Source of the DNA: Bacilli bacterium
GTDB taxonomy: Bacteria > Bacillota_I > Bacilli_A > RF39 > UBA660
NCBI GenBank assembly: GCA_017459965.1
Contig: JAFUBW010000009.1
Span: forward strand, 1-42,535
Direction: 5' to 3'
DNA length: 42,535 bases
Part shown: in pieces, positions 24,202-24,663 of the stretch
Position numbering within the stretch: position 1 is the first letter of the stretch
Layout of the letters: each line of letters starts with the position of its first letter
The notes under the pieces: generated by a model
The model's database searches: none
The model's input: the letters and a program-made list of their open reading frames with translations, nothing else
What the model was told of the DNA's origin: nothing
Program-made: the position numbers and the translations under genes

Positions 24202-24230
24202 TTGATATATTATTTAAATTATTATATAAT
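24202..24230 (+). promoter_or_regulatory. Consensus promoter of the small hydrophobic peptide gene
   Basis: TTGATA (24202-24207), exactly 17 bases, TATAAT (24225-24230). The predicted start is the G at about 24237, giving a 55-base leader. Confidence 0.8.
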
Positions 24231-24261
24231 TAATATGGAACATTTAATAGTTGGGTGGTTG

Positions 24262-24284
24262 CCTTCTTTTTTATAAAAAGGAGG
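24262..24284 (+). promoter_or_regulatory. Hairpin hiding the ribosome binding site of the small peptide gene
   Basis: CCTTCTTTTT (24262-24271) pairs with AAAAAGGAGG (24275-24284) with one G-U pair and a 3-base loop. The right arm is the Shine-Dalgarno sequence of the ATG at 24292, so the folded leader would block ribosome entry. Confidence 0.75.
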
Positions 24285-24291
24285 TGGTAAA

Positions 24292-24390
24292 ATGATATCA
24301 AAAAAAGATTTATTAAAAAATCTACTTATAGTAATTTTGATTATCATAATCCTTCTTCTTATATTATTACTATTTGTAGTTTTGATATAA
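24292..24390 (+). CDS. 32-residue hydrophobic peptide, candidate type I toxin
   Basis: The peptide begins MISKKDLLKN and continues as about 22 almost uninterrupted L, I, V and F residues, ending FVVLI. It is therefore a single membrane helix with a short basic N-terminus. Expression features are strong: a consensus promoter, a full AGGAGGTGG ribosome binding site sequestered in a hairpin, and mRNA ends able to pair. A convergent transcript with its own terminator overlaps the 3' part. These are hallmarks of type I toxin-antitoxin loci such as txpA/ratA or bsrG/SR4, but the peptide does not match any such family I know (Fst, TxpA, Ldr, Hok). A small regulatory membrane peptide is the alternative. 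Confidence 0.6.
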   Translation: MISKKDLLKNLLIVILIIIILLLILLLFVVLI

Positions 24391-24425
24391 AAGAAAATCA
24401 CCTAACTACAGCTTAGTTAGGTGAT
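24388..24425 (-). terminator. Minus-strand terminator overlapping the end of the peptide gene
   Basis: ATCACCTAACTA (24397-24408) pairs perfectly with TAGTTAGGTGAT (24414-24425). The T-rich tail (TTTTCTTTT) is on the minus strand only, so the hairpin ends a transcript coming from the right and antisense to the 3' end of the peptide mRNA. Confidence 0.8.
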
Positions 24426-24475
24426 ACCAAAATATATGGCAACACTCAACATGCACAATTGAATGTTCCTTTTTT

Positions 24476-24504
24476 ATTTTATGAAGAATTTCTTCATTAC
24501 ATAC
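24476..24504 (-). promoter_or_regulatory. Possible weak antisense promoter with palindrome
   Basis: On the minus strand TAAAAT lies 6 bases before GGAACATT, the sequence at the 5' end of the candidate antisense RNA. The -35 region is poor. ATGAAGAA and TTCTTCAT form an 8-base palindrome (24481-24497) just upstream. It may be an operator, or the antisense RNA may simply be the 3' end of the transcript of the gene at 24520-24663. Confidence 0.3.
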
Positions 24505-24519
24505 ATACTATCATATATT

Positions 24520-24663
24520 TTAATTATTTGCAAGTTTATTATTTTTTAATTTTAATGATTTATTATCATCATTCATTTTATCTAAAAGTGGTTTAACTGT
24601 TTCTTTTAATTCAGATAATTGTTCTATTTTTTTCTTATATTCATGTATTTCAATTGTCTCCAT
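24520..24663 (-). CDS. Small helical protein (47 aa)
   Basis: The peptide METIEIHEYKKKIEQLSELK continues with a charged helical stretch and ends KLANN. It has no hydrophobic segment and looks like a short coiled coil. A strong ribosome binding site GGAGGG lies 5 bases before the ATG, and TATAAT with a TTTACT -35 lies upstream, so it is likely real. Its transcript would run leftward into the terminator at 24388-24425 and be antisense to the end of the hydrophobic peptide gene. It could be an antitoxin partner or an unrelated convergent gene. I recognise no family. Confidence 0.6.
   Translation of the reverse strand: METIEIHEYKKKIEQLSELKETVKPLLDKMNDDNKSLKLKNNKLANN

Follow-up and report, generated by a model that had tools for sequence, protein, structure and literature searches.

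Does the short hydrophobic open reading frame between uvrC and yigZ in this Bacilli genome, together with the hairpins that surround it, represent an accident of AT-rich DNA, or is it a toxin-antitoxin locus in which an antisense RNA holds a small membrane toxin in check? The locus occupies positions 24,202-24,663 of the window, by which we mean the whole stretch of 42,535 nt that was analysed (contig JAFUBW010000009.1 of assembly GCA_017459965.1), and its parts are listed in Table 1. We consider that these parts quite probably form a chromosomal type I toxin-antitoxin module whose family lies outside the libraries searched, and from its anatomy we strongly infer a toxin-antitoxin function. 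This reading is favoured because the locus belongs to a conserved, multi-copy family with tandem arrays, because its peptide is under purifying selection, because the mRNA ends and the stem over the Shine-Dalgarno (SD) sequence co-vary, because an antisense promoter and terminator can be recognised, because an RNase III gene is present, and because the design resembles that of txpA and bsrG.

Table 1. Parts of the putative type I toxin-antitoxin locus, in window coordinates
Feature	Position	Strand	Details
Putative toxin promoter	24202-24230	+	-35 TTGATA 24202-24207; 17-nt spacer; -10 TATAAT 24225-24230
Putative toxin mRNA	24237-24475	+	about 239 nt; ends placed from the first G after the -10 box to the T run
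5' closing arm	24237-24263	+	GGAACATTTAAT 24237-24248 and AGTTGGGTGGTTGCC 24249-24263; pairs with the 3' arms
Leader hairpin	24261-24285	+	11 bp, 24261-24271 with 24275-24285; buries SD AAGGAGG 24278-24284
Putative toxin ORF	24292-24390	+	32 aa, MISKKDLLKNLLIVILIIIILLLILLLFVVLI; putative single-pass membrane toxin
Antisense RNA, putative antitoxin	24390-24498	-	about 109 nt, approximate ends; conserved promoter and terminator
Antisense intrinsic terminator	24397-24425	-	perfect 12-bp stem and T run
3' closing arms	24438-24475	+	GGCAACACTCAAC 24438-24450, ATTGAATGTTCC 24458-24469, T run 24470-24475
Antisense promoter	24505-24533	-	-35 TTGCAA 24533-24528; 17 nt; -10 TAGTAT 24510-24505

The promoter, the peptide and their relatives

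The promoter that an earlier note on this DNA had named, TTGATA-17-TATAAT, is indeed present and matches the consensus at 11 of 12 positions. Promoter-like sites, as judged by match score, are no commoner in this AT-rich region than in shuffled sequences (18 observed against 19.2 expected), so that chance can be excluded only by comparison with relatives. In 126 of 184 related copies, however, an exact TATAAT precedes the GG start by 4-10 nt, which makes the toxin promoter credible. The frequency of promoter-like sites in shuffles is what one would expect if an accidental hydrophobic reading frame and some hairpins had come together in an AT-rich intergenic region, but this explanation is refuted by the 237 distinct copies that we collected, in which the ends, the peptide and both promoters are conserved, and its probability is negligible.

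When 60 relatives were searched by blastn, the block 24224-24483 was found again at no more than 79% identity, with several copies to a genome and with tandem arrangements, and the mRNA region forms a single conserved block in these relatives. The exact 5' motif GGAACATTTAATN0-2GTTGGGTG occurs in at least 117 stretches of GTDB species genomes; among the matches listed, nearly all are to metagenome-assembled genomes (MAGs) of uncultured Bacilli, Tenericutes or Erysipelotrichaceae, and many come from animal-gut sources, including Candidatus Onthousia. NCBI places the latter in Bacilli incertae sedis, and we take it and its kin to belong to the GTDB order RF39. This search left the 3' end unconstrained, and the expected 3' end was present in all but three of 116 copies, as TTGAATGTTCC (56 copies), TTAAGTGTTCC (53 copies) or a near variant.

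The peptide had been described as consisting of 32 residues, all of them hydrophobic. The 32-codon reading frame is there, but its N-terminus is charged (MISKKDLLKN) and only then followed by an unbroken hydrophobic segment. With fewer than 60 residues and what appears to be a membrane-spanning segment, judged by length, composition and conservation, it resembles the small hydrophobic peptides of type I toxin-antitoxin systems. Among the 184 copies in which a start could be placed behind the -10 box, there are 149 distinct reading frames behind a good SD sequence (a few at the end of this list look miscalled), and the family peptides, 25-32 aa long, all combine a short charged N-terminus with one hydrophobic helix. 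By eye they fall into subfamilies such as MNKKDFLILSLVIIIFLLLFLLFIVLI, MKTKTFIVKVLKLIAIILLLSTLLVLAIKK, MRKKDEYLCTIIILLIIVILIILIKIVPTV, MTKREFSQFIIILLLFLVVIILLLK and MKKKDLLISFLILIIILLIVSLMILCIKK. Across 76 distinct 27-codon reading frames, the first, second and third codon positions show 21900, 7709 and 25179 nucleotide differences, respectively; K4, L21 and L22 never vary, and K3 and D5 hardly do. The codon-position differences and the invariant residues indicate that the peptide itself is selected, i.e. that purifying selection acts on the hydrophobic peptide beyond what acts on the RNA alone.

Folding of the mRNA and the antisense RNA

That the mRNA ends could pair just before a T run had been proposed from the window copy, and such pairing is found: an outer helix joins GGAACATTTAAT to ATTGAATGTTCC, an inner one joins AGTTGGGTGGTTGCC to GGCAACACTCAAC, and the T run follows directly. 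In relatives the two ends change together (GGAACA(T)/TGTTCC, GGATACA/TGTATCC, GGAATAC/GTATTCC, GGAAATA/TATTTCC), with compensatory changes over 59 distinct end combinations. In these combinations the outer helix has -11.5 kcal/mol with its own 3' end against -6.9 with permuted 3' ends (sd 0.35), and the inner helix -17.3 against -11.0 kcal/mol (sd 0.49), strengths that none of 5000 permutations approached; since copies share descent, the permutation spread understates the uncertainty, yet at least four matched end types exist. RNAalifold gave no pairs on alignment A1, probably because a few outlying rows are misaligned, and the matched-arm permutation tests were used instead. Full-length folds pair the mRNA ends in 97% of copies, a long-distance 5'-3' closure of the aapA/hok type. 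Judging from the alignment, the two 3' arms may instead form a helix between themselves that would act as a local sense terminator, so that the 3' end would have two mutually exclusive partners. With so many natural variants whose ends match, this family would be an unusually rich source of data on the folding rules of toxin mRNAs.

A leader hairpin sequestering the SD sequence, put earlier at 10 bp, is present with 11 bp, and its arms co-vary in relatives. The fold alone is weak evidence for such a lock, because in shuffled leaders the SD sequence is also fairly often paired (0.53 against 0.69), and the useful test is therefore the swapping of arms: the stem has -10.85 kcal/mol with its own arms against -9.54 with swapped ones (sd 0.27), and none of 5000 permutations reached the former value. 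In full-length folds the pairing probability of the SD sequence exceeds 0.5 in 97% of 172 copies, which, with the covariation of the stem, points to a toxin mRNA that is folded with its SD sequence blocked. Deleting 14 nt from the 3' end of the mRNA leaves this pairing unchanged in the fold model, a result that counts against our preferred explanation. As loss of the 3' end does not free the SD sequence in the model, the leader hairpin would be a separate lock; activation through 3' trimming, which we also considered, is unsupported by folding.

On the opposite strand, the 12-bp hairpin with a T run that had been claimed as the end of a convergent transcript is present (24425-24397) and conserved. 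The same stem-loop stands just past the toxin stop codon on the sense RNA, where the fold following the stop codon averages -15.0 kcal/mol against -6.4 in shuffled sequences, and the region has three terminator-like sites against 0.2 expected. Relatives thus keep the paired sense ends and the leader hairpin, both with compensatory change, as well as the antisense terminator; lack of hairpin conservation in relatives was one of the outcomes that the earlier note had named as evidence against its own reading.

Alignment of relatives adds a conserved antisense promoter, which that note did not contain, just as it had neither the conservation across the family nor the multi-copy distribution. The boxes in the window are weak (8 of 12 consensus positions), which counts against our preferred explanation, and the automatic scan favoured another site in this copy; they stand in register with the TTGaCA/TATTAT-type boxes of relatives, where a TTG-type -35 box is combined with a -10 box of TATTAT, TATGAT or TATAAT. 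Of 113 copies, 94 have a 17-nt spacer and 99 a -10 box that ends 33-37 nt before the complement of GGAACA, while 62 reach a promoter match score of at least 10, as compared to about 5% of shuffles. By sequence and conservation, these boxes and the terminator indicate an antisense gene over the toxin mRNA that has a promoter and a terminator of its own. A reading frame for a charged, coiled-coil-like product of 47 aa, with an SD sequence, lies nearby (24520-24663, minus strand), and its stop codon falls between the antisense -10 and -35 boxes; as it was not found in the genus relatives, it was dropped as a part of the system.

The antisense RNA would overlap the mRNA over its final 86 nt, from the toxin stop codon to the mRNA end, i.e. 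only its untranslated 3' part, as in txpA/RatA and bsrG/SR4. The predicted duplex of the two RNAs has -182.4 kcal/mol, against predicted minimum free energies of -71.6 for the full-length mRNA and -34.2 for the antisense RNA alone. In the mechanism that we envisage, the leader hairpin and the end closure would keep fresh mRNA untranslated, while the antisense RNA, part of which resembles the 5' arm of the mRNA in sequence and so can compete for the 3' arm, would form a duplex of about 86 bp with it. RNase III, for which the host genome has a gene (225.9 bits), would probably cleave this duplex and so remove the mRNA. Should the supply of antisense RNA drop, mRNA would escape and some peptide would be made, which may then insert in the membrane and slow or kill the cell.

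Known type I systems and searched libraries

The earlier comparison with txpA/ratA and bsrG/SR4 holds for design, in that a sequestered SD sequence, end closure and 3' antisense overlap were all found and are conserved. In Bacillus subtilis, both txpA/RatA and bsrG/SR4 form a 3'-3' duplex, hold the SD sequence in a short stem and decay through RNase III (PMC6562991, PMC3531473). With txpA/RatA the present locus shares a convergent antisense RNA over the 3' end of the mRNA of a small membrane toxin, a strong SD sequence in a short stem, and an RNase III gene in the genome (PMC6562991, PMC3531473). It differs in its peptide (25-32 aa in this family against 59 aa), in the overlap (about 86 nt against about 120) and in the length of the antisense RNA (about 109 nt against 222), has no sequence match to that system in Rfam or the protein libraries, and forms a chromosomal multi-copy family, whereas txpA/RatA belongs to a prophage, the skin element. 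The bsrG/SR4 and bsrE/SR5 systems of B. subtilis likewise have 3'-3' overlap and a sequestered SD sequence, with mRNAs of 255-294 nt and toxins of 30-38 aa as compared to 239 nt and 32 aa here (PMC6562991), but their peptides are unrelated to ours by profile libraries and our RNA is without an Rfam match.

Other systems share other parts of this anatomy. In aapA/IsoA of Helicobacter, as in hok/Sok, the full-length mRNA is closed by 5'-3' pairing, and aapA also has local hairpins that mask the SD sequence and several chromosomal copies (PMC6733600); in aapA3, however, it is the 3' end that masks the SD sequence and trimming that opens it, whereas here a local hairpin does the masking and trimming in silico does not open it. 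Fst/RNAII (par, on Gram-positive plasmids and chromosomes) resembles our family in the charged K-D near the N-terminus, the hydrophobic helix that follows, and an antisense antitoxin, but a search of the host genome with its model PF13955 was negative, and the Rfam model fstAT stays far below its cut-off (E 2.7; 16.6 bits against 72 required).

Searches of Pfam, NCBIfam, PHROG, Rfam and the PDB sequences gave no match to the peptide or the RNA at a meaningful score, Rfam giving nothing at gathering score, which agrees with the earlier opinion that the peptide matches neither the txpA/ratA nor the bsrG/SR4 family. Homology to txpA/RatA or bsrG/SR4 was likewise not found, as judged by Pfam, NCBIfam and PHROG profiles for the peptide and by Rfam for the RNA. 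In the open-access literature searched, we found nothing on type I toxins in RF39 or in Erysipelotrich- taxa, nor on toxin-antitoxin systems in RF39. Within Pfam, NCBIfam, PHROGs, Rfam, PDB and this open-access literature, the family is thus undescribed.

The profiles of SecE and MgtR give weak and non-significant matches to the peptide. One may consider that it lacks toxicity and instead acts as a small regulator in the membrane, comparable to MgtR or a SecE accessory, with the antisense RNA controlling it, and single-pass peptides as small as this can indeed be regulators. However, many diverged paralogues per genome and tandem arrays are typical of type I toxins, and a very tight repression in several layers, with hydrophobicity kept over sequence, is toxin-like as well, so that we regard a regulatory role as quite unlikely.

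Distribution, mobility and neighbouring genes

R1, a sequence-only covariance model of the 3' half and the antisense promoter, found copies in 100 of the 145 genomes of the host family, which represent 99 of 144 genera. There are from one to at least 20 copies per genome, 20 candidates having been scored in each, and the host genome has two. The genomes are mostly MAGs; that of the host is about 90% complete, an incompleteness that we counted against the preferred explanation. Of 198 genomes sampled evenly across the class, 14 were positive, 13 from the host family and one (G319) from another. In this last genome the copy (L270, G319:C32) has all its parts, encodes an intact peptide of 30 aa, and reflects either horizontal transfer or contamination. 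Tandem arrays of two to four modules were seen at L010, L053, L117, L120 and L241, with peptides that differ within L010 and L053.

If our reading is correct, most genera of an uncultured gut group of Bacilli carry many copies of a system that is absent from annotation libraries, and a load of up to at least 20 copies in about 1.2 Mb would be, to our knowledge, among the densest of type I toxin-antitoxin loci.

In the window 543 bp separate uvrC from yigZ, while in G002, the closest genus relative, and in others the two genes are close and the module is absent; another relative (L263) has a different insert at this site. Since the module is missing from this interval in the genus relatives inspected, the window copy was either gained in this lineage or lost in others. 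Synteny of the module is not conserved in the genus relatives inspected, and the comparison indicates that it is mobile, or often gained and lost. Lack of conserved synteny is usual for such loci. A phage or plasmid origin was rejected, as IMG/VR has no match to the exact 5' motif and distant blastn searches against phages and plasmids yielded nothing beyond short matches of the kind that chance produces.

Shortly beyond the antisense promoter, 29 of 155 copies have a tRNA gene, against about 3.6 expected. These genes are of many tRNA species, all 29 are read in the antisense direction, and all but one lie 68-125 bp past the mRNA 3' end (L003-L148). Among protein-coding neighbours the direction is biased likewise, with 109 of 136 on the right side; such neighbour counts are not independent events, since copies may share descent. 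In the tRNA-adjacent copies no repeat of the tRNA end was found across the module from the tRNA gene, for which reason site-specific integration at tRNA ends was rejected.

This placement behind tRNA genes and other genes is strongly biased, and it suggests another view of the family, as a small mobile element that spreads itself and for which RNA and peptide provide its own maintenance by addiction, with no role for the host: the mechanism would be toxin-antitoxin-like and the function selfish. The tandem arrays, the up to at least 20 copies per genome of 1.0-1.5 Mb (among the matches listed), the absence of the module from the uvrC-yigZ interval of the inspected genus relatives and the single copy in another family all fit such an element. 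Against it, neither a transposase nor terminal repeats were noticed, in passing rather than in systematic inspection, the tRNA end is unrepeated on the far side, and phage, plasmid and IMG/VR collections gave no convincing match. We hold a selfish element to be a real possibility, if a somewhat less than even one; it is compatible with the toxin-antitoxin reading and does not exclude it.

Near the antisense promoter, a terminator-like hairpin is found in 24 of the 29 tRNA-adjacent copies and in 34 of 132 other copies. In most hairpin-bearing copies next to a tRNA gene the TTG of the antisense -35 box stands at the junction of stem and loop (acgacTT.GTCAaa.aagtcgt|TTTT), and the stems around it vary between copies yet stay paired, e.g. 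in L018 and L095. Tentatively, one may imagine a very large undescribed type I toxin-antitoxin family whose members settle downstream of transcription units, tRNA genes among them, and in which, through a -35 box in the terminator loop, the supply of antitoxin is tied to upstream termination and read-through, although we think this rather unlikely to be correct as a whole. Were it so, antitoxin would fall with tRNA transcription and a tRNA terminator would have become a growth-rate sensor, a link that suggests a new way of coupling antitoxin to growth. The window copy itself is without a tRNA neighbour. The second copy in the host genome (L271, G000:C20, near 287950-288250) encodes a peptide of another subfamily, MTKREKSQFFIILLLFIIIFVL, and its RNA ends differ from those of the window copy yet match each other.
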